Positions 1,764 through 62,981 of a DNA stretch of 64,000 bases are shown one piece after another (position 1 is the stretch's first letter; each line of letters starts with the position of its first letter). The DNA comes from Ulota crispa. Lineage: Eukaryota > Streptophyta > Bryopsida > Orthotrichales > Orthotrichaceae. The notes beneath the pieces were generated by a model. The model saw nothing but the letters and a program-made list of their open reading frames with translations. It had not been told where the DNA came from and ran no database searches. Made by a program: the position numbers and the translations under genes. The stretch is taken from contig OY987250.1 of the NCBI GenBank assembly GCA_963920765.1, forward strand, positions 5,580,001-5,644,000, written 5' to 3'.

Positions 1764-2700
1764 TTAACCTTTTAGTGCCCGGTTAACCACTTTTGGGTTG
1801 ATTTTGGTACTCCGTGGTTCTTGTCATCTTTGTTCTATTTAGTTTGCAAAAATACAAAACGTAACGGAGTTGGGGGTATAGTTTGTGCTCCTACTGGAAC
1901 AAATTTCAAAGCAAAGCATAAAGAAACATGGTAGCTATGTGTATTTTACATATGAAGTTGGGAATCTCATACGGATGTAACAAATGAAATACTAATTTAG
2001 TGAAATTGTGACATGGTCCCAAAGCCCACATATTGCATCCAAAGTATCCAGTGCTAACTCTCTAGTAGTTGTGCAAAAGATGCATGGTTTATTTAGAAAT
2101 TCTACGTATGGCATATTTCAGCTACAACTTTGCATATTCCATGAAATCTTAGGCTCCAAAGGTTTGCAATGCTAAATGTGGGACCTTGTACTTGAAATGA
2201 CATCTAATGTAGATGATATTGACCAATTGGATTTTGTGGAAACATGTTCCATGCATGTTGTATTCAACCGTATATGTGTGGCCACATTCATATTCTTCCA
2301 ATGTTCAATTTCACAAATCATGCTGTGAAATGCACAGATTGACTCAAATTTTGTATTTTTTTATAGAAGTGGAGTAATCCTAGAATGGGACAATAACCTC
2401 TATGAATTTCACCACTATCAAAAGTTTCAATTGCATGATTGACACTAATTAGTTAGAGTATCTCACGTTTTTGCACAAGAAGTTTTATTGGATCATCAAG
2501 CTACTGACAATCCTCACATGGAATTGTTCCAATAGATCAAAGTTTTTTTTTATATTCATGTTGCCAAAGTTTATATCTTTGATATGTCTGGTCCGATTTG
2601 ATTTTAGAAACACAAATTTTGTCCTTGCATGTGTTTTGCAGACCGTATAGTGAAAATTTGAGGTGCCCCCCCAAATGGTTGACAGGCACTAAAGGGTTAA
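1764..2700. mobile_element. TTAA-bounded TIR element (group T, 929 bp)
   Basis: TTAA occurs at both borders (1764-1767, 2697-2700). The ends are inverted for about 30 bases: the left reads CCTTTTAGTGCCCGGTTAAC and the right, reversed, reads CCCTTTAGTGCCTGTCAACC. No transposase. This is the best-preserved terminal repeat of the group in this window. Confidence 0.8.
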
Positions 2701-3165
2701 TGAACAATAAATTTTTCCAAGGTTTCTCAATTGATTTCCCTACTCCAAAATCTTAAGTTTCATGCTTATTGATGTTGCTACCTTAGTTGATTCTGTATGT
2801 GAAAACATCTCCTGAAAATTATGTTTCTCTTCAGTGTAAGACTCCTCAATACTACGTAGGATAACCAATTGCAGCTTCAAGGATAACCAGAAGCAGTGTT
2901 GCATAAATTGAGAATAGATTCTCTTGAGGGAATGTTAAAAATTAAATAAACTCATGTTGTATAATGTTTATACCTAAGGCCTATAGGTTTAGTTCCATGC
3001 TAACTTGGAATTAGAGAATGTAAAATTGGTAAACTAATTTGTAATACAATATTGTTTGTTTTCTTACCTTTTTCAATCGCAATGCCAACATGGAAGTTTA
3101 AGGAGGGTAGAAGTTGGTAGCTGTTAATGAATCTTGATGTGAACCTTTCAGTCTCTCATCTAGAG
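2701..3165. other. Intergenic, nothing recognised
   Basis: AT-rich sequence between two mobile elements. No coding-like ORF or repeat partner seen. Confidence 0.4.
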
Positions 3166-3482
3166 TAAGGTAGGAACACCCACAAACGTCGGTGTCCCCA
3201 TAATTGTCACCTTTGAAATCTTGGAAAATCTATGAAAATGAATAGATGTAATGACAAGGGTGTACAACATGTGAACATGAAATCTTAAAAGTGGTTATGG
3301 AAGCTATGGCAATTTGTTTTTAAAAATTCACAACTTATTCTCACAATATCCAAATAATACATTCAAAAGTGCAGACTCATTATTTTTCTATTGCTAACAT
3401 GATCCTATAATTTGCTACATGTTTATTAATAGTTTTCATGTTCAAAACCCTTAGTTTGACGTTTATGGGTGCTCCTACCTTA
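3166..3482. mobile_element. TA-flanked MITE, family B (313 bp)
   Basis: Element 3168-3480 is flanked by TA on both sides (3166-3167, 3481-3482). Terminal inverted repeats: AGGTAGGAACACCCA at the left and TGGGTGCTCCTACCT at the right. Non-autonomous. The TA target and short inverted ends fit a mariner/Stowaway-type MITE, but the family assignment is inference. Confidence 0.85.
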
Positions 3483-3950
3483 TACTGCTTTTTGTAAAAA
3501 CTGCTCTTTTGGTTCAACGTGGGTACAAAGAGCCGAAAGAGGTAATATTTGGATTTCATAAAAAGAATAATAAGCATGTTTCATTTTGCTATAGTCATTT
3601 GTTTCATTTGAGTCATCATGCATTCAGATTCTTCAAGGCATGTCTTCTGAACTCTTAGTTTATCCTTTGATCTCTGTGAATGGTATGGCGATGTTAAGGT
3701 TACGAAACATCTGGAGTTCCCGTCAACGTTATTGCACGGTCGGTGTCGTTCAGAGCATCTACTGAGAGTCTAGCCTTACGATGTACTTGTGTAATCTTCC
3801 ATTTCACAAACAGTTGTGTGAAGGAAATTGGTACGGTGTCATGACACTTGCATTTTCTATGTTTGTTTCGTCCACTCTTAACTCTTAAATGGGCATAGGG
3901 CACAGTGTATATGCCGCCGTATAGTTGGCATTTCCTACCAATAAGAAGTT
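3483..3950. other. Intergenic, nothing recognised
   Basis: A 99-codon minus-strand ORF here (3999-3700) has no recognisable domain and runs into the neighbouring MITE arm, so it is not called as a gene. Confidence 0.4.
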
Positions 3951-4363
3951 TTAATTTGGAGAATTGATATATGCACACCGGGGATTGATATTTGCACACC
4001 CCCTAGGTAAATTTTAGATTTCTACCATCATAAAATTGAATTTGAGAATTTTGAACTCCAATTTGGACTTAGAGACCATGCTTTAGTTTAGACCATACAA
4101 GAAGTTGCATTTCAACAACACCCAATGAAAAAGCTTATCTTTTTTTACGAACAAAAGTAAGAGTAACACTTTTTCCCCTATCTAAAATTTTTCATTGGGT
4201 GTTGTTGAATTGTAACTTCTTTTATGGTTCTAGACTTAATCATGGTCTCTGAGTCCAAATCTGAATTCAAAATTCTCAAATTCAACTTTATGATGGTAGA
4301 AATCTAAAATTTACCCCAAGGGGGGTGTGCAAATATCAAGCCCCCTCAATTCCCTTAATTTAG
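3951..4363. mobile_element. Foldback MITE, family A (Mutator-like, 395 bp)
   Basis: Element 3960-4354 is nearly palindromic, with arms of about 190 bases. Terminal words are GAATTGATAT and ATCAATTCCC. It is flanked by TTAATTTGG (3951-3959) and TTAATTTAG (4355-4363), a 9-base duplication with one mismatch. No ORF of its own. Confidence 0.85.
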
Positions 4364-4986
4364 GATCTCAAGTACCTCACTAGAGTTGCTTTGATCTATT
4401 ATCCAAATCTGTATTGATCTCAAATGTAGTGAAGGTGGTAATCTATTCCAAATACAAGAAAAACCTCTAGTGCAAACGTTTAGTTGTTAAATAGTTATGA
4501 GAACATGTCATAGATGTTAGCAGATGACAAGTGCTAAAGCACTTGTGGAGCTCTTGTCCGATGCTGCAACATGGATGTTGATTACGTTGAGTTCGATGTC
4601 CATCAACCAATTTTTTTCTCTAACTATGTGTTCATTAGTAACGTACACTTTTTCTCAGATATGGCAGTACACGTTTTTTTTTTGAAGTTTAAGCAAAACT
4701 ATAAACGAAGTAGTGCACTCCTTATGATATTTCTGAAGTTACTAGGAGGTTGATCAACTGTGATGAGGACCTTCATTGTCGTGACAATGAAGCAGTCTAA
4801 TTACTGCAGTGACCGATGATTGTTAAGTTTGAGGCTGTACTGTGAGGTTTTATTTGCAGCAATGCTGTGTTCAGTAGTTTAACTGTAAATTATGTGATAT
4901 GCTAGCGTTTTCATGACATTTGTTGTTGTATGAGCTGCCTCTTCTTACTGGTAGCGTAGAAGTTCTGATTCCACCTATATTAATAG
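4364..4986. other. Intergenic, nothing recognised
   Basis: AT-rich, with only a short chance ORF at 4571-4753. It lies just upstream of the exon-like sequence at about 4987 and could hold an intron or leader of that gene. Confidence 0.35.
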
Positions 4987-5989: not shown

Positions 5990-6085
5990 GTAAGTTTGAG
6001 CAGCCAAAGTTACAATCCATGAAACTTGTGTGCCACAGTCATATTTATCTAAGCCAAGTTGGCCCCTTTCAGTGACCACAAGTGG

Positions 6086-6714
6086 GAGGATGCAAGCTAA
6101 GGGTGACTACTATGTAAGTCACAAGGGTAAAAATGAAGGGTTTTTTTAGCAAATGGATCTAGTTTCATTGAAAATGAAATCTTTAAGAGAGAAAGGACTC
6201 ATATTTAGAACGTAGATTTGTTGATGATCCAATTTCCACCAAAATAAAGAATATATCTCTAATGTGATAAGAGAAAAGGACTTTTGAACATAGCTCCTAA
6301 ATCTATCACAGGGTTTTTTTCTTGCTAAAAAGAACTCTTGAATTGATATATAGACTCATAATATGGGCACAATTTTTTGGCATCATTATTGGAAGATTGA
6401 AATGATTACATTTTGAAATAATTTTTTATGAATGTAATTTATATTTTGGAGAAAAGGACTTTTATGTGCTCTTGAATGACTACAATTTTTGGCCCTTTTT
6501 GGGGATTGATTTCTCTAAGTTAAATCATTTTTTTAACTTTTTTTCTTTATTTAAGTATCTTAGAATGGCATAAACTAAGGTGGTCAACCTTTGGAATTTG
6601 AAACTCTCATTGAGAAGAGGGAGAATTCTCATTGGGAACACAAAAACACTCCATTTTATACTCAAAAAAAGACTTTTTGTTGCCACAAATAGTCACCCTT
6701 AGCTTGCATCTCCC
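6086..6714. repeat. Inverted pair flanking an AT-rich 0.6-kb segment
   Basis: GATGCAAGCTAAGGGTGACTA-like sequence at about 6088-6108 recurs inverted at about 6690-6712. The right copy overlaps the 3' end of the transposase reading frame, so the left copy may be a displaced piece of the same element. The segment between is AT-rich and has no gene. Confidence 0.5.
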
Positions 6715-7833
6715 CAAGTGTTCAACAAGGTCATCCTTTAGACCAAAATGAGTGTTTCTGTTCTCTACCTCTAAAGTACTAGTAATGAACTTATCAAAGG
6801 TAAGTCCCCTATGCATAGAAACTGGCTGTTCCTGTAAATTTCCTAGAATATTTTTTAGGCCATCTACATTCTCTTCATCTGCAAGAATCATGTTGTGCAA
6901 AATGCAGCATGTAAACATGATATGTGAAATAAAATCTAAATTCCAATGGCGGCTAGGGTTTTTGATAATTGCAAGTCGAGCCTGCAAGATGCCAAAACAC
7001 CTCTCCACGTCTTTTCGCACAGCTTCCTGTTGTGTTGTGAAATGACGTTTCTTCTCATCTGATGGAAGATGAATGTTTTGAACAAAGCATGCCCATTTTG
7101 AGCATATTCCATCAGTGAAAAGATAGTACCTGCTATAGTCATGTTCATTGACACAAAAGTGCATATCTTGGGTCTCTCCTCGAAGCATGTTCTGAACCAA
7201 AGGAGATCGATCCAGCACATTTAGGTCATTCTGTGATCTGGGTAATCCGAAGAACACATGCCAGATGTGCAGTCCACCATCTGCTATGGCTTCGAGGATA
7301 ATCGACTTCCTCCCCTCTTGATCACCAAAACTGCCCTGCCATGCCACATGCCAATTGTTCCAGTAGTAATACATACAGTTAAGGGAAGCAAACATGCCGG
7401 GGAAACCATGGTTGGCATTCAAATCCAACTGCTTTGACAAGTCCGTCCGTGTAGGCTATCACAAGTGAAAGCCTTCAAACTCAGCTCGAATTGCAAGGCA
7501 AAATCTCTTGAGGCTCTCCATCGTCGTACTCTCACTCGTCCTGCAGTATTCATCAGTGCCATCTGCATTGATGCTAGAACACAGCATTCGTAGAGAAGAG
7601 GTGATCTTCTGGTGTGGAGATAATTCCAAAACACCACCTGCATCCGTCTTCTAAACGAAGTAGGTGTCACGAGCACAAACCCTGTCAAGAATCGTCAAAA
7701 AAAGAGAACGCCTCATACGATAACGGTGACGGAATAAAACATCCCCAAATACAGATGTGTCCTCAAAGTAGTCCTCCATCATACGGTAATGCATCTGAAC
7801 CCTTTTTCTCTCGTTGTTCGGGACTTTCCTCAA
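6607..7833 (-). pseudogene. PIF/Harbinger transposase (DDE_Tnp_4 type), broken
   Basis: One minus-strand reading frame of about 409 codons resembles plant Harbinger nucleases throughout. The N-terminal part has MEDYFED and RHRYRMRRSLFLTI. The middle has HQKITSSLRML and STTMESLKRF. The core has GFPGMFASLNCMYYYW, IWHVFFGLP, a YYLFTDGI block and VRKDVERCFGILQARLAII, then CCILHNMI. The frame is interrupted by TAG at about 7651-7653 and by adjacent TGA and TAG at about 7458, all in phase, with no frameshift needed. The Asp normally found in the SIDCMHW block is Asn here (SLNCMYY), so the first catalytic acidic residue is missing; the second Asp (TDGI) and the Glu (VERCFG) remain. The gene would have cut and joined element ends. 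No matching terminal repeats were identified. It is an old, inactive copy. Confidence 0.9.
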
Positions 7834-9359: not shown

Positions 9360-9772
9360 TTAACCCCTAAATCCCCAAGGCACCACAATATGTTGTTGAC
9401 AATACTTTGAACTTCTATAAAACATAAGTAAGATGCTATTTGTACTAAATATTATTTATTAACTATCCTTTTGAAGTCTAGTTTTAGTATCAAAAAATTG
9501 ATTTTGTAAATGATTGGCTATGATTTCTCTATTTAATATTTTGTGCAAGGGTGTCCATTACAATCTTGACTTTTTTAGTGTTGAGAGCTTTCAATCCATA
9601 CATGATATTGCTATGTGTTTCTTTTCCTATGTGATCTAAAACATATGTAGTTTGATTATGTACGATTACAATTTTAAAAATACTAATACAACTTATCAAA
9701 ATTTTGACTTTTTGTTCAACTTAGGACAAATTCCTAGAAGCTCAGAAAGTGCCTTTAGCACTTAGGGGTTAA
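9360..9772. mobile_element. TTAA-bounded element, group T, subfamily D (405 bp)
   Basis: TTAA at 9360-9363 and 9769-9772. Ends are CCCCTAAATCCCC and, reversed, CCCCTAAGTGC. The interior matches the longer copies at 17399-18029, 22876-23522 and 54169-54822, with a deletion. Confidence 0.8.
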
Positions 9773-16479: not shown

Positions 16480-18047
16480 TAACACCATATTTGTTAATCT
16501 AGGAAAAACAGAGGTACCATTTTGTATTCTACCTTAATCCTTAAATTTTTCATCGACCCAAATTAGGTCAATTGGTTTTTAGCAATGCCATTTATGACCT
16601 TAGGAATGCAAAGAGTCACTTGAACTTTGACTCATTTGAAAGATAAACAAGTTAGCTATGTAGGGGTGTTTTCAAATTTAGAAGAAGAGTCACCATTGAA
16701 TTTATAGAAATTTTCAAACCATGGGTGGTCTTAGAGTTGTAGTGTTAAAGTTTGGCCCTAGATTTGTGAAAATCCTGAATTTTACTCACAGTTTTTGAAA
16801 TTTAAGGATAAAGTGGTCACTACTGCAAGACCATTTTCTCACTCCTTTTTTACCCTAAAAATACAAGACTTGTTTCTATGCGTGTGGAACTTGATTACCT
16901 TAAGAACGAGCATAAGATGCCAACTTTTTAAAATGTTATATGTTCAAAAGAGCCAATCAAAGCATAATTTCAACTACTCCAAAACATTGGTTTCCTTGTA
17001 GTACCATTTATATTTTTGTTATAATCTTCCAATCAAACCCTTAGATTGAAACCAAACTTTGCGGAGATGATAAGGAGGTGTCTTTCTATAAGATCTTATG
17101 GTTACTTTGGCCTAAAAAAGACTCATCATTCTTTAAGCTTCACCCTTTTATAACTTACAAAATTGAGGTCCAAAACACCTTCAAAATGGCTGAAAAATTT
17201 AAGGGTTAAATTAACCCAAAACATTACCTTAAACCAGATTCCAAGGTATCAGATTCAATCTGAGCCACTAAGATTTTGTCTCTTGTAAATTCCTCCTCTT
17301 GGGTGAGAGCACTTGTAAAAAAAAAACCGCTAAGCTTGGTTTTAGGAGATCTTTGAAAACCTTGAAAGTCCCAAAATGTACCGTTTTTCCCAAATTAACC
17401 TCTAAATGCCTGCGGCACCAAATTTTGGTGTCGCCAATACTTTGAACTTCAATAAACCTAACTAAATTGCTATTTTTAATAGTTTATTTGTTTGAGCTAT
17501 TCTTTTTGAAGTCTAGTTTTAGCATCAAAAATTTGATTTTTAAAGTGATTGATTAGAAGTTTTCTATTTAAGATTTTGTGCAAGGGTCTTGGCTTTTTGT
17601 AGTGTTGAGAGCTCTTGGAAATGAGCCTCAAATATACTAGATCTTAAAGAAAAGTTTACACTAGATATTCATTTTAAAACTTTGTAAAAAATATTTGAAA
17701 GAGCCGTAAAATGATTAGAATTATGTATGCTTTTCCTTTAACCTTTTATTTTTTTGGTGACCAACTTTTTAGATTTAGCATGTGAAAAGAAGATTGAAAG
17801 TCTTCAAGTCATTTTTGCAGTTTTAACACCCTCATGATCAAACATTATAATATTTTAATCCATAGGTTATATTGTTGTGTTTTCTTTCTTGTGTGATTTC
17901 TAACAAATATAGTTAGAATTCTTACAGTTACAATTCTAAAAAATTGATGCAACTTATAAAAATGTTGACTTTTTGTACAATTCAGAGAAAGTTCCTAAAA
18001 GCTCAAAAAAGGCCTCAGGCATTTAGGGGTTAACAAACATGGTGTTG
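16480..18047. mobile_element. TA-type MITE, family I, interrupted by a TTAA element
   Basis: Left end ACACCATATTTGTTAAT at 16482 and right end ATTAACAAACATGGTGT at 18045 form the terminal inverted repeat of family I. The conserved interior word CAGATTCAATCTGAGCCACT (about 17250-17270) is present. The right terminal repeat is split by the TTAA element at 17395-18033. Confidence 0.75.
17395..18033. mobile_element. TTAA-bounded element, group T, subfamily D (631 bp)
   Basis: TTAA at 17395-17398 and 18030-18033; ends CCTCTAAATGCC and GGCATTTAGGGG. Removing the element and one TTAA restores CCCAAATTAACAAACATGG, the expected right end of a family I MITE. This shows directly that TTAA is the duplicated target. 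Confidence 0.85.
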
Positions 18048-21156: not shown

Positions 21157-21395
21157 TTAACCCTTAAGTGCCCCAACGACGGGATCTTGTCATTGGGGCG
21201 CACAAACTTGATCTCACTTTTTCTCTTAATTTGTACAATGAAAACAATCGTGGCTAGTCCCCATCAGCAAAGAAGGTAGTCCTTTTTCAAATCCTACGAT
21301 CACTTTTTCTGGATGTAATATTCCAAGCTTTGGTGGCCATTAAACCCCCCATTTTCTTCTAAACCCTAAAACAACTCTGGGCGCTTGAGGGTTAA
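21157..21395. mobile_element. TTAA-bounded short element, group T (231 bp)
   Basis: TTAA at 21157-21160 and 21392-21395. Ends are CCCTTAAGTGCCCC and, inverted, CCCTCAAGCGCCCAGAG. No ORF of its own. Confidence 0.75.
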
Positions 21396-22871: not shown

Positions 22872-23526
22872 TTAACCCCTCAACGCCCAAGGGAACCAAA
22901 ATTGTCCCTCTTTCTTTGTACTTTGGGATGCATAAATTTTCTTCATGATTAATTAGAATGATTATTAATTTTTTAAAGTTATTGTTGAAATCTTGTTTTG
23001 GTATGAGAAGTTTGATTTTGAAAATGATTAATTACAATTTTTATATTTACAATTTTGTGCAAGGATGTTTATTGAAAATCTTCACTTTTTAGTGTTGAGA
23101 GCTCTTGGAAATGAGCCTAAAACACACTAGAATTCGGAGAAACAATGACATTAGAAACTAAATTAAAAAAGCTGTAGAGTAGATTAATTATAAGAAGCAG
23201 TAAACTGATTAGGGTTACGGATGTTCTAATTTCCATACTCACATTTTTTTGGTATCCTCAATTTTAAATTTGAGATGTGAAAAGAGGATTGAAAGACTTT
23301 AAATCATTTTCACAATTTTAACACCCTCTTGATAAAATATTATAATCTTTCAATCCAAAAGTGATGTTGTTGTGTTTTCTTTTCCTATGTGATTTAACAT
23401 ATTTAGTGTGAATTTGTACAATTAAAATTTTAAAAAATTGATGCAACTTATCAAAATGTTGACATTTTGTTCATCCAAGAATAGATTTGAGATACTCATG
23501 AAAGTGCATGGGCCTTGAGGGGTTAA
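22872..23526. mobile_element. TTAA-bounded element, group T, subfamily D (647 bp)
   Basis: TTAA at 22872-22875 and 23523-23526; ends CCCCTCAACGCCC and, inverted, CCCCTCAAGGCCC. Interior words TGTTGAGAGCTCTTGGAAAT and GATGCAACTTATCAAAATGT are shared with 17399-18029 and 54169-54822. Confidence 0.85.
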
Positions 23527-23775
23527 AGGTTTGGTACTACTGCAAATTACCCAAATACTCTTGAGTCACAACAAATCATGTCCGTGTATATGGGTTCATT
23601 ATAGCATTTGGTATATTCATAAATAATATAAAATCAAAAATTCAAATTCTTTTTAACCCTTATACATTGTGCTAGTCATTGCAACTAGCCCCTCTACAAT
23701 GCTCTACAGTGGTGTGGCAAGTGCCCATTCATTTTAATATTAATTCAAAAAGCTGCAAGAATCAACAATGCATGT

Positions 23776-24081
23776 TAATGCCATATTCGTTAATTTGGGA
23801 AGAATTCCCAATTTCAAGAATAAACTAGGTTTAAGGTGATCACCTTAAACCAAGCTCTAGGTTTAAGCAGGATTTTTTTGGTACACATGCCCTCACCTAA
23901 GAGGAAGAATCTGTGAGGGACAAACTCTCATTGGCTCATACCAAATCTGATACCTTCAAATCTACAATTCAAATAATCTCAACCTTCAAATCTGTAGTTC
24001 AAATGCCAAAAAAAAACTTTGGGTTTAAGATGAAGTGCAACTTCGGAATAAGGTTTTCCCAATTTAATGAATATGGGGTTT
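23776..24081. mobile_element. TA-type MITE, family I (about 302 bp)
   Basis: Left end ATGCCATATTCGTTAATTTG; right end CAATTTAATGAATATGGGGT. The conserved interior (CCTCACCTAAGAGGAAGAAT) is in reverse orientation compared with 39086-39369. TA precedes the left end; the right flank has decayed. Confidence 0.75.
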
Positions 24082-26187: not shown

Positions 26188-27113
26188 ATGGACCACCGTG
26201 CTTCGCAAAAAGTTGCAACTGTACGTATTAGAGATCCAGTCGAAACGCGTATTAGTAATCCAGACTTTGTAGAAGAAGTTAACCAGCCTGGTGAGAGTGA
26301 GACTGAGACCTTCTCGTACCGCGACGTCGAGAACCTGCTCTGGATCCACGAGCACCCGATCCACAAGACGGCTCTGGAGGAGTGGGATAGGAAAGATAGG
26401 TTGCTGACTGCTCGGATTGAAAGGAAGCAGAGCTTAGTTCGTGCGGTATACAACGACGTATACCAACTGGTTGCATTCTTTTGTCTTTTTCAGAGTGTAT
26501 TACTTATTGCCGCTACGCAATCCTTTTCAACCTCTACCTGTGCCAAGGATCATTGGCGGTTACGGAGGAGGTTAGGTGTACTTCTGCTCTCGTGCGCAGC
26601 CTCCCTGTTTACTGTCCTAAGTGGAACAGCAAAGACATTCGACATCCGTGACTTGGCAACAACAATTAGTGTTGAAACAGAAGCTTTGCGGGTACGAATA
26701 TGCTCCTACCTAGTACTTAAGGGGCTTTATATTTAGCTGTTTGATATACATTATACTGCAGTATGGTGTCTAGCATTATCTAGTAGATAAAATTCTAAGC
26801 TCTAGAAATGGAGTTGATGTTAATTTCTTATCTGCATGCAGGATGGGATGGATCTTTCACCCTCTTAAAGTTTCATAACTTGTGGCCGGTTGATATGCTG
26901 AGAATCTTGCAATGCCTTCTCTGTCAGGAAATTATCAGACGTGCTCAAGAACTCCGAAGAGTTGGCCGTTATTTTAAATTTCGCGACAATACTATTTCCA
27001 GAAGTTACCCTAGACGGTTCTTTAAGACTCACTGGGTTAATCTCGTCCAGTTATCTTTTGTTTACTTTACTTCTTGCCTGTTTCCTATCACAATCTGGAT
27101 GGTTTCAGAATGA
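26188..27113 (+). CDS. Three-helix membrane protein of unknown family, paralogue 1
   Basis: Two exons, 26188-26691 and 26928-27113. They are joined by CGG/GTACGA and CTCTGTCAG/GAA in phase 0 across a 236-bp intron, giving 229 residues. The first ~85 residues are polar and acidic with a basic patch near 70-80. Hydrophobic segments lie at about 91-109, 128-146 and 204-227, the last almost at the C-terminus. No cleavable signal peptide is obvious. The downstream gene aligns along its whole length: HKTALEE with HRRALED, LFQSVLL with LIQSVLI, and RAQELRR with ARQELRR just after the intron. The matching intron position and phase support the splice model. The start is the first ATG of the frame. I do not recognise the family and assign no function beyond an integral membrane location. 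Confidence 0.75.
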
Positions 27114-27498: not shown

Positions 27499-27555
27499 AG
27501 ATCTTGGGTGGCCAATCACTCAGTCACAGAGTCAGAGACAAGCCTGGACGAGAGG

Positions 27556-31449: not shown

Positions 31450-33262
31450 CTTAACCCATAATGCCTAAGGATACTTCTCTCATTTTAACCCCTAAAGGCC
31501 CAAGCCCTTTTTTCTTTGAAAGTCAGTAAAAAACTGTCATTTTTGGGGGAATGAGTAGAAAGGTAGGAAAAAAAGTTTGTTTGGCAGATCCAACATAAAA
31601 TCTTGTCTTAGACTATGGGAAGTACTTGCGGGAAAAAAGTCAAATGTAGAGTAGTGAGATATTGACATCTGAAGTGAAAAAAAAAGTTTTTTTCCTTGTT
31701 GCCCAAAAATTTCAAAAGCCTTTGACTGCTCCTATATAAAATAAAATAAACTACTCTATGCAAAGTTGAGGTTTATTTTTTCCATGTAGAAGACCAAGTT
31801 AGGTAAGTGTGGGAGAAACTTCAAACGAATTGGAGATGTGGATCATGCTTTGTAAAATCTTGCAATGCCGTAAAGCCATGAAATTTGCATTAACATTAGG
31901 CAAAATTGGAGAATTTATGTAAAATTCAGAAATCTGAATTATTTTGATCCAAATGGTGAGAACCAAGGATCTTAGTCTTTGACAACTTGGAAAACAAAGA
32001 GTAAAAAGATAAATATACAAAGAGCTAAAAAAGTAAACACCAAATTTTACAAGGGTAAAAAGGAATGGAGGTTTGGGAGTCCCATACCTATTAGCAAACC
32101 AAAACTTCTCATTCATTAATCAAAATTGAATGACTCAAAACTTCCCACATATATATAAATCTAAAGGATCAATATCAGATCTTTATTTTAAAAAACAAAA
32201 TTAAAAATAAACAAATTGGGTTGCCAACCCTCCTCTGCTTTTCAGAAATTCATGCATAACTTCTTCAATAAATGTATGAATGAAGAAAAAATTAAATGCC
32301 CATGTAAGTCTTTGAATTCTCCATCTTCCATAAAGGGTTCAAAAAATCACACAAAGTAGTTTAGTTGTAAGTACATTTCCAAAACCCCACTTGGCCCCCG
32401 TGGGGCCACTTGGGCCTTTAGGGGTTAAGAAAGGCATTTTGGAAGTTTTTGAATTGTAGTTGCAAAATTATTACTAAACATTGAAACATAATTGTGTAAT
32501 CTTGAGATCTTGAACTTCAAGGCTTTTAGATGATGTTGTCAAAAAAAATCCACAAAAAGTTATGCAGATGTTAAGATGTTTATGACTAAGTGTGAATAAG
32601 TACTAATTTCATTGTTTCTTTTGGAGCCACTTAAACTTGTAATGCAAAAATGGTGAATTTTGGGTACAAAATTGGGAAACAACTACTTAAAATGATCTAG
32701 TATTTATTTATTTTATTTCAAAATTAATGACTCCCTTTTTAATTCCATGATCACAACTTCACAAATGAGCTTGCAATGCAGCTATTAAAAAGCCCAAAGT
32801 TTATTTCCAATTACTAACCAAAAATCATTATGAACAAAGAGAATTCAATGGTAAATGCATTCTAATTTGTAATACAAAGGCATTCCAAGTGAAATCAACC
32901 CAAAAACACATATGGATTTCATTAGATGATGATTTTTCAGTATAAGGGCCATCATTGCCTAGAGGGAGTTATTGACTTATTTCTCAACTTGTTGCCCATT
33001 TCTCCAATGTGACATCTTGTCACAGGCTCTTTAGTGACACTATTCATCACGCTTTTTTGATATGCAACAAACATGCTTTCACCAAAAATAATTGAAGTGT
33101 AATACTATGAAGGACAATCAAATCAAACATCAAAACTTGAAGCTATTTTTAGATTGCAACTTCTCCAAAAAAAAAAATCTAAACATTCAAATCTTTGCTG
33201 TCAACAAGGTCTCAAAATTTCCTAAAGACCAAAATTTGATGCTTCAAGAATTTAGGGGTTAA
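31450..33262. mobile_element. Possible outer TTAA-bounded element hosting an inner one
   Basis: TTAACCCATAATGCCTAAGG at 31450 and AATTTAGGGGTTAA ending at 33262 could be the two ends of one old group T element. The well-defined inner element 31485-32428 lies within it. The outer pairing is weaker than the inner. Confidence 0.4.
31485..32428. mobile_element. TTAA-bounded element, group T, subfamily E (936 bp)
   Basis: TTAA at 31485-31488 and 32425-32428; both ends read CCCCTAAAGGCCCAAG inward. The right half matches the arms of the foldback at 56207-56925 (ACTTCTTCAATAAATGTATG, CAAAGTAGTTTAG). The left half differs, so the copy is a mosaic. Confidence 0.85.
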
Positions 33263-34907: not shown

Positions 34908-35156
34908 TTAACCCCTGAGCGCCCAGAGTTATTTCACTGAAATCCATACCCTTGTGTACTTAGTCCAATAAAAGTATTACCTAAGTAGAGTCAAATAGTT
35001 TGAATTTTTTTTGAGTAGTAGTAGACACGTGCCTGGAGGTACATGAAAAAGTACAAGTCCTTTGACTTTACTATTAAGAAGAGGATAAGAGTCAAACATG
35101 CACATTTTTAAAAACTGAGTGACCACATTTGGGCTCCTAAGGTGCTCAAGGGTTAA
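34908..35156. mobile_element. TTAA-bounded short element, group T (241 bp)
   Basis: TTAA at 34908-34911 and 35153-35156; ends CCCCTGAGCGCCCAGAG and, inverted, CCCTTGAGCACCTTAGGAGC. No ORF of its own. Confidence 0.75.
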
Positions 35157-47196: not shown

Positions 47197-48844
47197 TTAA
47201 TTTAGAGAAAATTTCATGAATACTCCTGAAGTTTGCCATATTCGGTTTTTTGGAAATTACACAAATACCCTTGGTACATAATTTTCAAGCATTTGTTTTA
47301 TTACGCACACTACTCCTTTCATGACCAATGTTAACCCTTAAAGGTCAAGCTTACAACCATGGATTCTTGGGGAGATCACTTAGAGGGTTCATTAAAAACC
47401 AGGTGCTTTAAGATTTTGGGCCCCCTATCTTATGTTCTAAAACTTAAATAAAAGAAAAAGAAGAAAATATTAGTAGATACTCCGTACTTTGGTAGTTTAC
47501 GTTTTGAATTGATGGTAATTTTATTTATAAGTTATAATTAGTTAAAAAATTTGAAGTAAATTAATACACAACAGAGCTCAAAATAACTTTCACACAAATC
47601 ACATCCCTATCTTGTATAAGAAAAAATTGTTTCAAAAATACACAAAAAATTCTCAAAATGAGGCTCTATTGAAAGTTTATATTTCTTGAATATCAATGCA
47701 ATGGTCATATAAATGTGTTCTCTATAAATATTTGAGTTGAAAAACATGTTATTTTAGTTCATTTTTCAACCTTCTCTAGAAATTATTTGATAAATTATTT
47801 GAACTGAAGATTCTGGCAACATAATGCTATATTCATGATTAAACAACACTCAAAATTATAGGTTTAGATCACAATTCATTTAAAAGTAAATAGGGGAACA
47901 AAAATCACTTAACTCATGTGGTTAGCTATGGATACACTAAGTGATCTCCCTGAGCATAGATTTTCCATGGAATTGCAATCATCTTCTAAGAGTTATTTTG
48001 GCAATGTAATCAACATCAAAATTCAATATTTTAATTTTAGTAGAAGGTATGTGCATACTGCATGTCTAAACAATGTTCATAAATTTTGGTGAAATTTTGA
48101 AATTATTGTAATTTTTTGAAGCAAATGCTAAAGAAACTCATATTAATTACAAAATGTATTCAATTATGCCAAATTTTTTATCATGGATGTGAATCATGGA
48201 GAAGATCATCATGATGGAATTTTTCTTCCCATGTTGCTAAAATTAGAAAAAGTAACTATTCCATGGTAATATGTACTCAAATTGTGACAATAATGAAAAT
48301 TTCAAAACTTAAATTTTTTCAAAATATTAAAGTACAAGGAGAAACTAGATTTGGTAAACTTTCAAATGCTAGTTATGCTCAACTAAAAACACATCATCTT
48401 AATAACTCATATTGAGTATTGGTAAAAAGATCCTCAAAATTCAAAATGCACTACACATTGGTGCATCTTTACTACTCAATTGGCAAGTGGGACCCTTTTG
48501 TGAACATTATGCATTTAAAAGCTATCTATCTACATGCTCTAAATTGCACTATTTGTATCCCAATAGAATCTTAGATGAAAAACAGTGTTATTCCCCTTGC
48601 AAAGCACTTTTTAGTCATCCAGAAGCCACAAAATGGATGCAACAACATTCAAGGGTTAAAACAAGGAGTGCAACAAAACAGATAAAAGCAGCGTGCACAC
48701 AAGGGAGAAAAAAGTGACATACACAATAGAACAACGCCTAAAACCTATGCTTCAAAGATATTTGTGCAATTTCTGAAAAATCAAGGATATCTATACAAAT
48801 ATTGCAAACTTCAAGAGTATCCATAAAAATTTCCCTTAATTTAA
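47197..48844. mobile_element. Mutator-like TIR element interrupted by a TTAA element (1.6 kb)
   Basis: Ends near 47206 and 48835 are inverted for about 60 bases (GAATACTCCTGAAGTTTGCC against reversed GATACTCTTGAAGTTTGCAA). Flanks TTAATTTAG and TTAATTTAA match at 8 of 9 positions. The interior is a second element, 47331-48659. The outer element itself is only about 300 bp and has no transposase. Confidence 0.75.
47331..48659. mobile_element. TTAA-bounded element, group T (1321 bp)
   Basis: TTAA at 47331-47334 and 48656-48659; ends CCCTTAAAGGTCAAGC and, inverted, CCCTTGAATGTTG. Nested in the Mutator-like element. The ORF at 48412-48717 has no recognisable domain. Confidence 0.65.
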
Positions 48845-54164: not shown

Positions 54165-54826
54165 TTAACCCCTAGATGCTTGTGGCATCAAACTTTGGTG
54201 TCAGCAATACTCTGAAGTTCAATAAACCTAATTAATTTTCTATTTTTAGTAGTTTCTATTTTGGATTTGTTCTTTGTGAAATTTAGTTTTAGGATCAACA
54301 ATTTGATTTTGAAAATGATTAATTATGAGTTTTCTATTCAAGATTTTGTTCAAGGGTCTTGACTTTCTCTAGTGTTGAGAGCTCTTGGAAATGAGCCTCA
54401 AATACATTAGATCTTGGAGAAAAATTTACTCTAAAAATTCATTTGAAAAAATTGTAAAAGAGATTTTGAAAAAATTGTAAAAGAAATTTTGAAAAGCTAT
54501 AAAGTGAGTGGGGTTATGTATGTTATTTCCTTTAACCTTGAATTTTTTTGGTGACCATTTTTTTAGATCCAACATGTGAAAAGAGGATTCAAAGGCTCCA
54601 AGTTATTTTTGTAGTTTTGACACCCTCATGACCAAACATTATAATCTTTCAATCCAAATGGTATCATTGTGTCTTTTTTCCTATGTAACCTCTAACATAT
54701 CTAGTTTGAATTTGTTCAGTTACATTTAAGAAGAACTTGATACATCTTATTAAAATGTTGCATTTTTGTTCAAGTTGAAACAAATTTGTAGAAGCTCAAA
54801 AAATGCCTTAGGCATTTAGGGGTTAA
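54165..54826. mobile_element. TTAA-bounded element, group T, subfamily D (654 bp)
   Basis: TTAA at 54165-54168 and 54823-54826; ends CCCCTAGATGC and inverted GGCATTTAGGGG. Colinear with 17399-18029 over its whole length. Confidence 0.9.
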
Positions 54827-54903: not shown

Positions 54904-55841
54904 TTAACCCTGAACCCCTAAAGGACCATTGTTCCTACAGGGGGACAAATGGGATTTCAGGTAGGTACCTACAAACTCAAATTTTGTCTTGATTTTTTGA
55001 AACTTTTTTGAAGATAGGAAAACACATTAACTTTTGGGGAATATAAGTTTTATTCCAATAGATGCCAGGGAGCAAAAGTTATGCCCAAATAAGCACAAAT
55101 TTGGGGAGTTCAGGCAGCAAATTCTTTTTTTACAAAAAACTTGAAAGATTTTTTTAGTTTTTCTTCTCATAGATTATATCTTTGTCTACATCTGGAGCTT
55201 TGGTTCATTCCATTTGGACTAGTTGTGAGAAAGTTATGGACAATCTTGTTTTTTGGGCAAATTAAGCATCTTCTTGAAAAAATAACTTATAAACTTCATT
55301 TTTGAATGCAAGTTTAACATTTTTTCAATAAAAATTGTCAAAAAGGGTGAAGTTTGCTTTCTAGAACAATCTTGCCATTGGGATTATTGCATTTCAATTG
55401 CATTGCATGGTTATTAACAATTTAGGTTTTTGCTCAACTTCATACCTTCTTCTATCTAATGTTTTTTTTAAGAATGAAAATCTAGTAGTTTTTGTTTTAA
55501 TTTTTTTCCCAAGATTCCCAACTCAACTTCCCACCACAAAAAAATAAAGCTCCAAACTCTATGGTGCAAAAATTTTAAGTTAAAAAGGTTCATAGTTAAA
55601 TAATTTAGTCATGCAAGGTGCAAAATACCTTGTTTTTTACACTTTGAATGCAAATATCTTCCAATATTTGCGGTCAAAGTTCTTGAGTTTTGTATGACAC
55701 ATTCTCATACTAGTCTAGTACAAGATCCTATGATCAGATATGCAAAAAGACCAATTTTCAAACTTTTTTATTTTTTGCCATAGAAGTGGCAATTTTGAGT
55801 GTCTTTTGACAAAATAAAGGCCATATTCCTTTGGGGGTTAA
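54904..55841. mobile_element. TTAA-bounded element, group T, subfamily E (about 930 bp)
   Basis: TTAA at 54904-54907 and 55838-55841. The left end has a small duplication (CCCTGAACCCCTAAAGGACC); the right end, inverted, is CCCCCAAAGGAATATGG. Shares the GGGACAAATGGGATTT word with 56207-56925 and 62231-62803. Confidence 0.75.
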
Positions 55842-56202: not shown

Positions 56203-56929
56203 TTAACCCCTAAAGGACCACTTGTCCCTATAAGGGACAAATGGGATTTTGGGCATGTACTTATGGCTAAACTACTTTGTGTAATTTTTTGAAACTTTTA
56301 TAGAAGATGCGGAATTCAAAGATTTGTGAGGGCATCTAATTTTTTCCTCATTCCAACATGTATTGAAGAAGTTAAAAAGGAATTTATGGCAATTCTTGTT
56401 TGGCGAGCAGCCCAAAAACTTCTTTATAAGTTGCGTTATTTTAAAATACAAATTTGAGATTAGTTCTTTAGACTTACATATATGTGGGAAGCTTTGAATC
56501 ATTCAATTCTAATTGATGAGGTGAAAGTTATGAGAAGTTTTAGTTTGCGGATAGGTGTGGAAAATCTCAACATTATGCCTACCCGCAAACTAAAACTTCT
56601 CATAACTTTCATCTCATCAATTGGAGTTGAATGATTCAAAGCTTCCCACATATACGTAATTCTAAAGAACTAACCTCAATTTTTATTTTTAAAAAAATGC
56701 AATTTTTAAAGAAGTTTTTGGGCTACCTGCCAAACAAAAATTCTCAAAAATTAATTTTTAACTTTTTCAATAAATGTTGGAATGAGGAAAAAATTAAATG
56801 CCCACACAAGTCTTTCAATTCTCCATCTTCCATAAAAATTTAAAAAAATTATCCAAAGTAGTTTAGCCATAAGTACATGCCTAAAATCCCATTTGTCCCC
56901 CGTAGGACAAGTGGTCCTCTAGGGGTTAA
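56203..56929. mobile_element. TTAA-bounded foldback element, group T, subfamily E (719 bp)
   Basis: TTAA at 56203-56206 and 56926-56929. Almost the whole element is two inverted arms of about 350 bases meeting near 56560 (GCGGATAGG against CCTACCCGC). Ends CCCCTAAAGGACCACTTGTC and inverted GACAAGTGGTCCTCTAGGGG. The paired ORFs at 56502-56272 and 56631-56843 are mirror copies produced by the arms. Confidence 0.9.
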
Positions 56930-56999
56930 TGTGGCCCAACCTTCAAAGAAACATGAGCTCCTCTATAGTTTGGATGAGAGACTGAGATTTACTAAAATT

Positions 57000-57340: not shown

Positions 57341-57407
57341 GGTTTTGCCGAGTGAACGAACTGCCCGGCATCGGGACCTAGTTTCTCTCCCCACCATATC
57401 CGCTTAC

Positions 57408-59780: not shown

Positions 59781-59802
59781 AGTAAAAAACTATCATATGT
59801 TA

Positions 59803-61180
59803 TTAACCTATAAAGGACCATTGTCTCTTTAGGGGACAAATGAGATTTTGGGCATGTACCTTTGGAGAGGCTACTATGTGTGATTTTTTGAAACTTTTAT
59901 TGAACATTAGAGGAAAAATGAGCTCAAGAGAAGGCCCCTATGGGAAGTGGTTGGAGAGGTCAAAAGCATTTAAATGTAATATCCATTTTCAAATAAAAAG
60001 AGACTAATACCCTATACCCACTTAAAAGTACTTTATGAGAGTAATTTCTTTTACAATAGCATATGCTTTTTCTTCAATGAGTGTCCTTGTTTGATTGGGA
60101 ATTCTAGTCCCAATTTATTCTTGTGTCCCACTAAAGGTCCTTGCATTTGTCATTGTCATGTTACAATATTATTTTCCATCATCAATCCTTTTGTTATGTA
60201 CCATGGTACATTTGAGTACTTCACACAAGGTAGAGACACTTGTGTAAGTACCTTACCTATGCTTCTCCTACCTCAACAAATAGAGTGGTTTGTCAAGGTA
60301 TAGGGGCCTTCTCTTGAGCTCATATTTCCTCTAATGGATGGGGAATTCAAAGATCTTTGTGGTCATCTAATTTTTTCTTCATTATGACATTCAACAAAGA
60401 AGTTATGCAAGAATTTATAAAAACTAGGAGAAGAGGGACAAGTTGGGCAGCCCAAAAATTTTCTTTAAAAATTACATGTTTAAAAATAAAAATTTGGAAT
60501 TGGTTCTCTAGATTTTTTATACATGGGAGCTTTGAATCATTTGATTTCAAACAATGAGATGAAAGTTATGAGGAGTTTTTGTTTGCGGGTAGTTATGGAT
60601 TTTGTTACTCTAAAATAAACTTTGAAGTCCATTAATTTACTCAATTTTCAATATTTTAGAAAAAAAACAAAACCAAAAGATGTAGATTGTTTATCACAAC
60701 ATTACAAGTTTACAGCCATTGGGATTGGAATTTTTCATTTCCATAATTAAGTTCTTAACAATTGAGTGGTTTAAATCATTCTCTACTTCTTTTTGCTTAC
60801 TATTCTTTTTCCATGTATTTTACAATCCCAAATGATTTGAAAATTTTCAAATGTGTACCCAACTTGTTTTGAAGAACAAATCCAAAAATGACAACCATTT
60901 TGGAGTTTTTTTCATACAAATATGACCTTGTGAAGTGCAGCTGCCCGGATTTTTGCAGAGACAAAAAATAGCTTTTTGTCAGTTCAAACTCAATTATCTA
61001 AAATCTACATGGTAGAAAAACCTGAACTATTGTTTATATCTTTTGACACTAGTGTAGTACAAGATCTTACAATTATGTTTGTCAAAAAGACTTCTTTTTT
61101 CTAAAATTTGGTACTTGCACTAGAGTGTCAGTTTTGGAACAATTTTGGTGAAAAATTGAGCTTAGTGCTTTAGGGGTTAA
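59803..61180. mobile_element. TTAA-bounded element, group T, subfamily E, with nested insertion
   Basis: TTAA at 59803-59806 and 61177-61180; ends CCTATAAAGGACCATTGTC and inverted GTGCTTTAGGGG. Colinear with 54908-55837 and 56207-56925 except for the block 59906-60335. Confidence 0.75.
59906..60335. mobile_element. Nested TIR element (430 bp)
   Basis: Ends ATTAGAGGAAAAATGAGCTC and inverted GAGCTCATATTTCCTCTAAT, followed inward by AAGAGAAGGCCCCTAT on both sides (36-base repeat). It interrupts the group T sequence between ACTTTTATTGAA and GGGGAATTCAAAGATC, which are contiguous in related copies. Superfamily unknown. Confidence 0.8.
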
Positions 61181-61624
61181 TAGACTGATTCTAAATTACA
61201 ATGATTGATTCCAAGCATCAACACGGAGTGATACAAAGCTGCCAAAAGAGAGCAGCACTTCAATAGGCAAAAACAATGTTCAGCTGAAACCCTTGCAAAA
61301 ATTGAAAAGAATACTCAGCAGAGATGGGAAACTGTGCGCCTCTGACTGGAATTGCCTGGTACTTGCTGAACCTTGAAAAAGCTGGACCGGGCGGGTGTAG
61401 TACCCGGATCGAATTCCCGGCTGTCCATTTTTCGGTGACCGGCAAAAACCAATTCTGCCGGAGATGCAGGCTTGCACTAATGGATATGCTCTAATGACAG
61501 CCTCGTGCTTACGGCTTTCTAGCGTATGGGAGTTTGCCAAATGGCATGCCTACGGGACCCCGTAAGAGGCTGGGTCCGATGGCGCTCGAGCAGGGCTTAA
61601 TTTTAGTTTTCGTCAGGGCAGAGC
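61181..61624. other. GC-richer tract, unassigned
   Basis: Bases 61300-61620 approach 50% GC. Minus-strand ORFs of 61 and 86 codons have no recognisable domain. Possibly a fragment of a gene or transposon. Confidence 0.35.
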
Positions 61625-61920
61625 GACCCGCAGTCCCGCACCCTAGAATGCAGGCAAGTAAAGAAAATTTAGCTAAAATTAGAACAAATGAATGATTTGC
61701 AGAGGTTCATTCAAAAAAACTACTAATATGAGTTACTTTCATACAAAATATGGTAAATTAGGTTTTAGCACAAGTAGGGATGTGGCGATTTCATCCAACA
61801 TGTCACTGAAATCTCTTAGTGTATCATTTGCTATCTCATATTTGGGGTAAGATTTAGGCAAATATTTGCCGAAATTAAACAATGTGCTGGAGCTTAGAGT
61901 TTTGTACGTTCCTCTGTTTG
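61625..61920 (+). repeat. Left copy of a diverged direct repeat
   Basis: GCAGGCAAGTAAAGAAAAT, GAGTTACTTTCATACAAAAT and GGTAAGATTTAGGCAAATAT recur in the same order at 63330-63580. Spacing between copies is about 1.67 kb. Confidence 0.55.
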
Positions 61921-61934
61921 GGGTTAAGTTAAGC

Positions 61935-62981
61935 TTAACCCTTAAGCGTTGTGGGGGTCCTTATGGATACAGTAGTGCCTGGATACAATGAAGGTATCCG
62001 GATAGCATATTCCTTTCATGTAAGGAAAACATTCATTGTAACTAAACAAGTTTCTATAGCTCCCCAACCACCAGGGACAGTCATCTACTTCATTTTAGCC
62101 AAGCGTTTTTCCTTATAAAGATTCATCTTAGGGCCAGTTTCCATTAAAGGGCCGGACTAGACTAGATGTCCAGCCTGACCGGGGTAGAGGAACAAAAATT
62201 TCTAAAATTCCCAAACTGTGTACATTTTAACCCCTAAAGGCCCAAGGGCCCTTTTGGGGGACAAATGGAATTTTGGGCATGTACCTATGGCTAAACTACT
62301 TTGCGTGATTTTTTGAAACTTTTATTGAAGGCGAGGAATTCAAAGATCTATGTGGGAATGTAATTTTTTCTTCATTCCTACATTTATTGAAGAAGTTAAA
62401 AATGAATAACTAAAAAAGAAGGGACTCCAGGCAGCCCCAAAACTTCTTTAAAAATTGTGTTTTTTTCAAATAAAAATCTGAAATAGGTTCTTTAGACTTA
62501 TATAGACGTGGGGAGCTTTGAATCATTCAATTCTAATAAACAAGATGAAAGTTATGAGAAGTTTTAGTAGGTGTGGTTTCGTTTAAAGAAGTTTTGGGGC
62601 TGCCCGGAGTCCCTTGTTTTTTAGTTATTCATTTTTAACTTCTTCAATAAATGTAGGAATGAAGAAAAAATTACATTCCCACATAGATCTTTGAATTCCT
62701 CGCCTTCAATAAAAATTACAAAAAATCACGCAAAGTAATTTAGCCATAGGTACATGCCCAAAATTCCATTTGTCCCCCAAAAGGACCCTTGAACCTTTAG
62801 GGGTTAAAAAGCAACTTCTAGTCAAAGATCCAGGTGCTCTAAACATATTGGTCAAGTTTTACAGAGCCGGAGCCTGGACCTCCGGCCCCTCAATAAAAAC
62901 TGACCTTAGGGAGGCACTTCTGTACACTGCCCCATGTATGAGCGGGGACAATTTTCGTCCCCGTGGTCCTGTACGGGTTAA
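61935..62981. mobile_element. Possible TTAA-bounded element hosting another
   Basis: TTAACCCTTAAGCGTTGTGG at 61935 and the inverted GGTCCTGTACGGGTTAA ending at 62981 may be one old element. The clear inner element 62227-62807 lies within it. The terminal match is short, so this pairing is tentative. Confidence 0.45.
62227..62807. mobile_element. TTAA-bounded foldback element, group T, subfamily E (573 bp)
   Basis: TTAA at 62227-62230 and 62804-62807; ends CCCCTAAAGGCCCAAGGGCC and inverted AGGACCCTTGAACCTTTAGGGG (last 20 given by position). Long inverted arms, each with GGGACAAATGGAATTTTGGG or its inverse. Confidence 0.9.

Follow-up and report, generated by a model that had tools for sequence, protein, structure and literature searches.

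The window analysed here (64,000 nucleotides of moss DNA) carries a series of small elements whose C-rich ends are inverted relative to each other and abut on TTAA. The initial annotation had listed 13 starts of such elements, of which 11 proved to be sound, each with C-rich inverted ends abutting on TTAA, while the one at 54904 was misplaced and the one at 47331 is weak. For each listed start, pairing was scored as the best inverted TTAA partner, in matches out of 13 bases; as a background, 462 other TTAA sites of the window (those without CC after them) reached at least 9 matches in 42 cases and at least 11 in 6. The features, none of them assigned to a strand, are:

1764..2700, element A, non-autonomous TTAA element, 937 bp, ends CCTTTTAGTGCCC / CCCTTTAGTGCCT, 11/13 inverted
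9360..9772, element B, non-autonomous TTAA element, 413 bp, ends 9/13
17395..18033, element C, non-autonomous TTAA element, 639 bp, ends 12/13
21157..21395, element D, TTAA element, 239 bp, ends CCCTTAAGTGCCC / CCCTCAAGCGCCC, 11/13
22872..23526, element E, TTAA element, 655 bp, same family as B, C and I, ends 12/13 plus family matches
31451..33262, older host element of F, 868 bp of its own sequence, matching both ends of L031
31485..32428, element F, TTAA element, 944 bp, nested in 31451-33262, perfect 13/13 ends CCCCTAAAGGCCC
34908..35156, element G, TTAA element, 249 bp, ends 10/13
47331..48659, weak candidate only, TTAACCCTTAAAGG end, partner 9/13
54165..54826, element I, TTAA element, 662 bp, same family as C (79% along the whole element), ends 11/13
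54911..55841, element J, about 931 bp, TGAA (altered TTAA) at the left border, ends 10/13
56203..56929, element K, TTAA element, 727 bp, ends 12/13, near-complete palindrome with arms 88% complementary
59803..61180, element L, TTAA element, 1378 bp, composite, ends 9/13
62227..62807, element M, TTAA element, 581 bp, K family, ends 11/13, shortened palindrome with arms 96% complementary

Some of these borders differ from those first proposed. A start at 54904 gives a pairing of only 8/13, and aligned sister copies place the TTAA at 54911-54914, which here reads TGAA; likewise, the element starting at 62227 does not extend to 62981, its palindrome arms closing at about 62807. The smallest size, formerly put at 231 bp, is that of the element at 21157-21395, which measures 239 bp. 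The host element at 31451-33262, which encloses 31485-32428, was absent from the earlier list. The candidate at 47331 has no good partner, and a query covering 47331-48000 was without match among the genomic loci compared, where elements A and D had no further copy either. The window gave nothing at gathering score in an Rfam scan, and no transposase remnant when searched with 20 transposase copies.

The claim that the interiors of the elements are unrelated holds only in part, since two groups share internal sequence: the elements at 9360, 17395, 22872 and 54165 have common sequence over much of their length, and those at 31485, 56203, 59803 and 62227 carry common stretches of a second family. 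Both halves of B match a TTAA-bounded copy in another part of the genome (L029 8902-9554), which supports its weak 9/13 pair, and this same copy and element I are full-length relatives of C, whose first 38 bp show 84% identity to the end of the transposase-carrying element L031. In the same way, the weaker 10/13 pair of G is supported by a copy, L031 9026-9271, at 84% and TTAA-bounded too. Element F has relatives in L001 and L038, and the size of K agrees with that of the copies of its family; for L, support beyond the ends is limited to its first 105 bp, which match K at 84%.

A genome-wide search with ends plus TTAA, of the kind that the initial annotation had proposed, returned 29,788 matches to TTAACCCYTNARNGNCC (i.e., TTAA and the end consensus), against 3 for the reversed control. 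Flanks other than TTAA, named there as one of two findings that would speak against the family, were the minority: TTAA directly precedes 2,233 of the 2,670 exact CCCCTAAAGGCCC ends in the whole genome (83.6%), and among 20 compared copies of one family it is exact at 34 of 40 borders, the remaining 6 being one base off. The 437 exact ends without a preceding TTAA nevertheless count against a piggyBac reading. Within the window, 44 sites share at least 10 bases with the 13-base end and 21 of them follow TTAA, whilst 20 dinucleotide shuffles gave a mean of 16.5 end-like sites, with a mean of 0.15 and a maximum of 1 preceded by TTAA. Short motifs near TTAA are easily over-read, and the weak candidate at 47331, one of the 13 starts, is a reminder of it; but with 21 TTAA-preceded ends against 0.15 in shuffles, and the reversed control as above, chance juxtaposition of TTAA and C-rich sequence is hardly conceivable. 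The same goes for a single satellite repeat, as the copies of one family listed lie on contigs C1 to C10 in differing flanks.

The base composition of the end itself is less clear-cut. In 56 ends chosen by a pattern requiring TTAACC and then C or T, 54 have C as third base, whilst the fourth is C in 43 and T in 13, and the terminal repeat is about 13 bp long. The available text of one source gives piggyBac terminal repeats as 12-19 bp starting with CCYT (PMC10175614), so the predominance of C at the fourth base was counted against a piggyBac reading. The motif is not uniform, however, because CCCTT, CCCTC, CCCAT and CACTA are all listed in the part of PMC10813416 available.

The same genome contains many genes for the enzyme expected of piggyBac elements. 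A profile search with the piggyBac-transposase domain PF13843 (116 of 528 candidates scored) gave at least 120 genome matches, spread over contigs C1 to C11, with a best E of 1.3e-73, and zero matches by the same search in 14 control genomes. A general Pfam scan of nine proteins from six transposase-carrying loci, which took in the L031 and L036 families, had eight transposase pieces matching PF13843 alone (at an E threshold of 0.01) and no Pfam match for a further L031 ORF; the L029 family is assigned solely from the genome PF13843 match. One protein, that of L035, matches the solved piggyBac structure 6x67 (3.6e-20) and, through its residues 38-393, piggyBat 9c0f (1.5e-16). The catalytic aspartates D1, D2 and D3 are present in 21, 16 and 20 of 23 transposase copies, respectively, and all three in 15 (the partial pieces L033b and L034b were aligned and excluded from these counts). 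By regular expression, a C-terminal cysteine-rich (zinc-type) motif is seen in 11 of 22 copies, including L012 and L022 of the L031 family and L018 of the L029 family, and not in the other 11, L036 and L037 among them. The transposases are diverse, with a median pairwise identity of 0.34 among the 23 copies.

The best-known piggyBac elements are those of insects and other animals, and it might be asked whether these genes stem from foreign (animal or fungal) sequences in the assembly. This is extremely improbable, given that the PF13843 matches lie on large contigs shared with copies of the small elements (C1 to C10) and with plastid insertions, and that the assembly includes a plant-type plastid contig. 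Among PDB chains, those of Physcomitrium patens come nearest to its plastid PsaB, in agreement with the plant origin first given for this DNA.

Placing the transposases within elements required comparison of copies. Of the 8 transposase loci taken first, 3 had matching ends that were accepted and 5 had none, and 14 of 217 control window centres reach 13/14; since end pairs around a transposase were too weak by themselves, they were replaced by copy-to-copy alignments. An end pair for L034 (695-7315) was dropped because a MITE of about 0.95 kb present in L004 to L006 matches its rightmost 600 bp. The 1.5 kb flanks of 20 transposases contained no convincing end pair in the 20 loci because the elements are larger than that. 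In three families with two copies each, the element alignments end at most 2 bases from TTAA-CCC ends. Homology between L036 and L037 begins and ends at TTAA-CCCCTTGAGG, over 5,230 and 5,308 bp; L029 and L069 (5,027 and 5,026 bp) form a single alignment of 5,029 columns at 90.5%, from the left border to one base beyond the right TTAA; and L031 and L070, of about 5.7 and 5.5 kb, match at both ends, in pieces. Across these six copies, TTAA is intact at 10 of 12 borders and one base off at 2.

There are three PF13843 families inside TTAA-CCC ends, the type of longer element that the initial annotation had proposed to look for, and the transposase found with these ends is not one of another superfamily. 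Kolobok and Sola3 target TTAA as well, so that the target is not specific to piggyBac, and the mostly C fourth base could be taken in their favour. Yet in the general Pfam scan PF13843 was the only domain matched by transposase pieces from the L031 and L036 families, and the copy alignments locate the PF13843 proteins within the TTAA-CCC ends, which leaves another TTAA-targeting superfamily very unlikely and supports the family name piggyBac together with the TTAA flanks.

One element of the window can be tied directly to such a relative. With F left out, 31451-33262 aligns to L031 on both sides: its left 569 bp match 585 terminal bp of one L031 end at 72%, and the 134 bp on its right match 145 terminal bp of the opposite end at 69%, both alignments starting at TTAA. 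In a further comparison, the right-end match has an E of 7.9e-10. Judged by these alignments, 31451-33262 is an internally shortened relative (i.e., a deletion derivative) of the transposase-carrying L031 family. Of 417 candidates for the 5′ end of L031, 40 were scored and 39 of these are other genome matches; all but two of the 39, i.e. 37, cover the terminal 114-150 bp only, at 74-82% and starting at base 1 to 3. An L036 end, on the other hand, occurs at two places in the genome only, and small relatives are seen for the L031 family only, because neither L036 end nor the 5′ end of L029 has a match in the window or in the other loci compared.

The ends also carry palindromes. In L036 and L037 the transposase-side end has a perfect one at bp 17-33, L029 has one with 6 of 7 pairs at bp 16-34, and in L031 a perfect palindrome lies at 23-40 instead; of the far ends, that of L036 also has 6 of 7 pairs and the others 4 or 5. 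Perfect palindromes were counted in 8 of 56 ends, compared with 4 of 224 sequences from interiors and 5 of 560 from shuffles, and K and F have theirs at the same end position as L036. This bears on the possibility that, whilst the small elements of the L031 type are piggyBac, some CCCCTAAAGGCCC-ended (TTAACCCCTAAAGGCCC-bounded) families used an unrelated enzyme and acquired their ends by convergence, in keeping with which no transposase-carrying element with exact CCCCTAAAGGCCC ends was found among the loci examined. It appears unlikely, as K, F and the transposase-carrying L036 share TTAA, the 13-bp end pattern and the palindrome position, and with 116 of 528 PF13843 candidates scored few loci were read fully.

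Homologous sites without the element add to this picture, with a clean single TTAA in three of five. The nested insertion in L038 has its unfilled counterpart, with a clean TTAA, in L031; element G has a clean unfilled site with a single TTAA in L035; and for element C such a site lies within the window itself, at 23756-23954 (68% identity). The sites homologous to that of A in L035 and L038 read CTAA instead of TTAA, and the empty site of F in L031 is without TTAA. For 7 of the 11 window elements, no unfilled site was present among the genomic loci compared.

We conclude, with a probability of about 0.96, that these are non-autonomous (MITE-type) elements belonging to several piggyBac families in moss, as read in the sequence from their ends, TTAA borders, unfilled sites, transposase-carrying relatives and a deletion derivative, and that transposase genes of the same genome probably moved them. 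The transposase-carrying elements, about 5 to 5.7 kb long and with TTAA-CCCC(T)... as their ends, code for a DDD transposase, and copies from two of the three families show a C-terminal zinc-type motif. By analogy to the moth piggyBac, this enzyme would bind the terminal repeat of about 13 bp, its zinc-type domain contacting the palindrome that one end has near bp 17-33; excision would pass through a TTAA hairpin, leaving the donor site seamless, and the excised element would reinsert at another TTAA. Short derivatives retaining both ends, some of them whole-length palindromes, would have been mobilised in trans and multiplied. We infer this chemistry, the mobilisation in trans of each MITE family, and activity in the past rather than the present.

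Much in this scheme has a counterpart in the piggyBac of Trichoplusia ni (6x67/6x68), for which the available text of PMC7351741 describes a TTAA target and border, CCC ends, a DDD transposase (D268, D346, D447 in the moth), a C-terminal cysteine-rich domain (CRD) and, at one end, a palindrome spanning bp 17-33, the CRD site. Unlike the moth element, which is about 2.5 kb long (2472 bp in the part of PMC10813416 available), those of the moss are of about 5 to 5.7 kb, have mostly C as fourth end base and other palindrome sequences, and show low sequence identity to it. The match of the L035 protein to piggyBat, a bat element by name, is a distant one. It is tempting to read all this jointly, with piggyBac as a dominant DNA-transposon superfamily of the moss lineage, comprising many transposase lineages; whole-element palindromes of about 727 bp as its most successful passengers, in which repeated arm-to-arm conversion or snap-back copying maintains the likeness of the two arms; and the transposase gene of L032, which is without piggyBac ends, as recruited by the host. 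However, we offer this only tentatively, at well below even odds.

Seamless excision at TTAA is the reason for the use of piggyBac in genome engineering. With nearly 30,000 end matches and diverse transposases, plant piggyBac biology becomes testable in moss, including remaining mobility, seamless excision in plants, silencing, and the palindrome position from moth to moss. Plant MITE surveys with five or six superfamilies, none of them piggyBac, would overlook or misfile such elements. A survey of 207 plant genomes, concerned like this work with small gene-less elements, has the classes Mutator, hAT, CACTA, Tc1/Mariner, PIF/Harbinger and Micron, with no piggyBac class and the word itself absent from the available text (PMC12550479); therefore such elements could be missed or misfiled there.

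The literature matches listed, which exclude subscription papers and Repbase, contain no description of piggyBac in moss; a text match in a Niphotrichum paper proved to be the word piggybacking. That the superfamily is rarely reported from land plants is a fair statement, qualified by a fern annotation table listing PiggyBac with 1,230 copies and 122,417 bp (PMC6890710) and by its place among seven angiosperm MITE superfamilies (PMC10004981). What is new is the very large moss set, the superfamily having already been named for fern and flowering plants. In the available text of both sources these are mentions at the level of the label, without anatomy, whereas in moss the ends and their TTAA borders are shown along with transposases and a deletion derivative, and the end counts are far higher.

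If the small TTAA-bounded elements of the window belong to piggyBac, as the initial annotation proposed from their borders, longer elements carrying a piggyBac-type transposase between similar ends should accompany them; these were looked for and found in three families, those of loci L029, L031 and L036, all bounded by TTAA-CCC ends. The piggyBac transposase domain PF13843 (DDE_Tnp_1_7) has at least 120 matches in the genome (best 1.3e-73), a lower bound with 116 of 528 first candidates scored, and no match in any of 14 control genomes. When the surroundings of eight transposases were inspected (8 to 10 kb each), paired TTAA-CCC ends flanked the gene at those three loci, and none were found at L030, L032, L033, L034 and L035; an end pair first apparent at L034 (11/14) was dropped. 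Because the ends of small non-autonomous elements (MITEs) are dense, and 14 of 217 random window centres reach 13/14 end pairing, element boundaries were tested by comparing copies with one another. L036 and its second copy L037 are homologous from TTAA to TTAA (5,230 and 5,308 bp; two aligned segments, 89.4 and 92.8% identical), whilst L029 and its second copy L069 form a single alignment of 5,029 columns (90.5%), spanning L029 1863-6890, which starts at the left border and stops one base beyond the right TTAA at 6889. Between L031 and its second copy L070 the homology is interrupted by gaps, its segments being 68 to 81% identical, and it extends from the 5′ TTAA to at most 2 bases from the 3′ border. 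The six copies have 12 borders in all, of which ten read TTAA, one TTCA and one TCAA.

In the window itself, scoring the 13-base motif CCCCTAAA(G/T)GCCC on both strands gave 44 sites matching at 10 or more bases, 21 of them directly preceded by TTAA, as against means of 16.5 sites and 0.15 with TTAA (maximum 1) in 20 dinucleotide shuffles. The initial list of elements stands in part: an inverted TTAA partner of at least 11/13 bases was found for 8 of its 13 starts, compared with 6 of 462 other TTAA sites; the start at 54904 was misplaced by 7 bases, sister copies setting the border at 54911, where it reads TGAA, and 47331 is still a weak candidate. The end pairs of 9360 and 34908 are weaker, but TTAA-bounded copies of them exist in L029 and L031; 59803 pairs at 9/13, and its first 105 bp match 56203. 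The 12 accepted elements, 31485-32428 being counted within its host, occupy 9,223 of 64,000 bases (14.4%), a figure for the window and not a genome estimate. Their interiors, described at first as unrelated, are not all so, and two groups share sequence: 9360, 17395, 22872 and 54165 form one family, and 31485, 56203, 59803 and 62227 a second with shared stretches.

The element 31485-32428 is nested in an older one, 31451-33262. With the nested copy removed, the host aligns with L031 inwards from both of its TTAA borders: 569 bp match the outermost 585 bp of one L031 end (72%), and 134 bp match the outermost 145 bp of the other (69%). The window thus contains an element that is related to a transposase-carrying one and shortened in its interior. 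A further 39 matches were obtained for the L031 5′ end (best 40 of 417 candidates scored), 37 of which cover the terminal 114-150 bp only, at 74-82% and starting at base 1 to 3; it also matches the ends of the window elements 17395 and 54165, over 38 and 53 bp. Only in the L031 family is this link between small and large elements seen. Genome-wide, the L036 5′ end occurs twice, in L036 itself and in L037, and among the fetched loci the sister copy is the only match to the L029 3′ end. A transposase-carrying partner of the CCCCTAAAGGCCC families was not found, and their mobiliser is therefore a putative one.

Over the 157 contigs (274.8 Mb) of the assembly, the counts are 15,411 for TTAACCCCTAAAGG (1 for its reversed control), 2,670 for CCCCTAAAGGCCC (3 reversed) and 29,788 for the looser pattern TTAACCCYTNARNGNCC (3 reversed). 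The TTAA borders proposed from the window recur genome-wide, since TTAA precedes 2,233 of the 2,670 CCCCTAAAGGCCC ends (83.6%) and is absent before 437. A 300-base query from the 62227 family gave 3,672 first candidates, the best 40 of which were scored; among the 46 matches listed, window copy included, the match begins at base 1 of the query in 44 and at 2 or 3 in the rest. In 20 fetched copies of this family TTAA stands at 34 of 40 borders, and the other 6 are one base off after a 1-base shift of one copy; flanks are unlike between copies, and pairwise identity is 0.88-0.94 (21 copies). Unfilled sites were sought by comparing the joined flanks of 11 window elements with the fetched DNA, and a junction-spanning match was obtained for four: clean sites for 34908-35156 (in L035) and 17395-18033 (at window 23756-23954, 68% identity), sites reading CTAA for 1764-2700, and a site in L031 without TTAA for 31485-32428. 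In addition, locus L038 has a 944-bp TTAA element within an L031-like element, and the same place in L031 is a single TTAA.

Just inside the terminal repeat, a perfect palindrome with 7-bp arms is present in 8 of 56 distinct ends; among interior stretches it was seen in 4 of 224, and among shuffles in 5 of 560. At six or more of 7 pairs the respective counts are 27, 51 and 53, the 56 ends coming partly from the same families and so not being independent samples. Upstream of the transposase the palindrome lies at bp 17-33 in L036 and L037, at 16-34 in L029 (6/7 pairs) and at 23-40 in L031; at the far end L036 has 6/7 pairs and the other three have 4 or 5. According to PMC7351741, the binding site of the dimeric cysteine-rich domain of piggyBac is a palindromic repeat in the left end, at bp 17-33; its position is the same as in L036 and L037 and nearly that in L029. 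Palindrome sequences vary between our families. From that source and the anatomy of the elements, the most likely cycle would begin with the synapsis of both ends by the transposase. The borders, the unfilled sites and the encoded enzyme are there to be seen; the element would be cut out via TTAA hairpins, a chemistry we infer from piggyBac, leaving a seamless donor site and reinserting at TTAA.

The catalytic positions 1, 2 and 3 are aspartate in 21, 16 and 20 of 23 aligned transposases, all three in 15, and 11 of the 12 departures are asparagine. A C-terminal cysteine-rich motif is present in 11 of 22 copies, including some of the L031 and L029 families, and was not seen in L036 or L037. The protein of L035 resembles the solved structures of piggyBac (6x67, 3.6e-20) and piggyBat (9c0f, 1.5e-16), its first two aspartates aligning with theirs and its third position being asparagine. 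Stop codons in 20 transposase domains (L009-L028) are TAG (38), TGA (25) and TAA (11), i.e., TAG or TGA in 63 of 74, which together with the D-to-N changes would fit decay by deamination of methylated cytosines (C to T). For L036/L037, dN/dS is 0.35 over 350 codons. One frame, L032 4311-5408 (C2:34594810-34595907), is free of internal stops and has the three aspartates as well as the cysteine-rich motif; no TTAACCC end was found in the surrounding 9.9 kb. Its three relatives (71 to 81%) all contain stops, and a rough dN/dS is 0.07 to 0.13, with dS of 0.8 to 2.6, near saturation. L032 is possibly a gene adopted by the host, or else an element with other ends.

Eighteen of the 20 fetched copies of the 62227 family (L046-L065), selected by likeness to one arm of the window copy, are near-whole-length palindromes of 699 to 728 bp with arms 89 to 99% complementary; the remaining two are shorter (551 and 564 bp), and their palindrome is less complete. 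Its window members are 56203-56929 and 62227-62807. Arms were compared in the 18 palindromic copies and 56203-56929, with 62227-62807 and both short copies set aside. An element's own other arm is the nearest of 37 in 13 of 19 elements and ranks 10th to 32nd in the other six, and mean arm distance is 0.067 within elements versus 0.105 between them, equally low in none of 500 random pairings; the arms thus tend to evolve together, perhaps by conversion or re-creation of the palindrome.

piggyBac is an established superfamily. In the parts of the literature available, it is named for a fern in a table row (PMC6890710) and among angiosperm MITE superfamilies (PMC10004981), and no piggyBac class is named in a MITE survey of 207 plants (PMC12550479); our literature search found no description of it in a moss. 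What is notable here is the scale, the several transposase lineages within one plant and the palindromic family. As to the host, the closest PDB chains to PsaB of the plastid contig are 8htu, 6l35/7xqp and 7ksq/7kux, which we take to be from Physcomitrium patens. Of the PsaA/PsaB matches, 46 of 48 lie outside that contig (C157), on C1 to C10, and are many nuclear plastid fragments.

Transposase matches of equal or near-equal score also occur in opposite orientation 15-110 kb apart (C7:18203169/18223004, C2:36765124/36779670, C10:676128/785346), which suggests inverted segmental duplications or assembly effects, and an array of 8-bp tandem repeats, several hundred bases long, starts at about 5720 in L030, near its transposase copy. 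On the minus strand of the window, 6607-7440 is a 277-aa open frame matching PF04827 (Plant_tran) and PF13359 (DDE_Tnp_4), presumably a PIF/Harbinger-type transposase. The neighbouring open frames 26188-26736 and 27508-28101 (182 and 197 aa) have similar hydrophobic stretches and, judged by eye only, look like paralogues.
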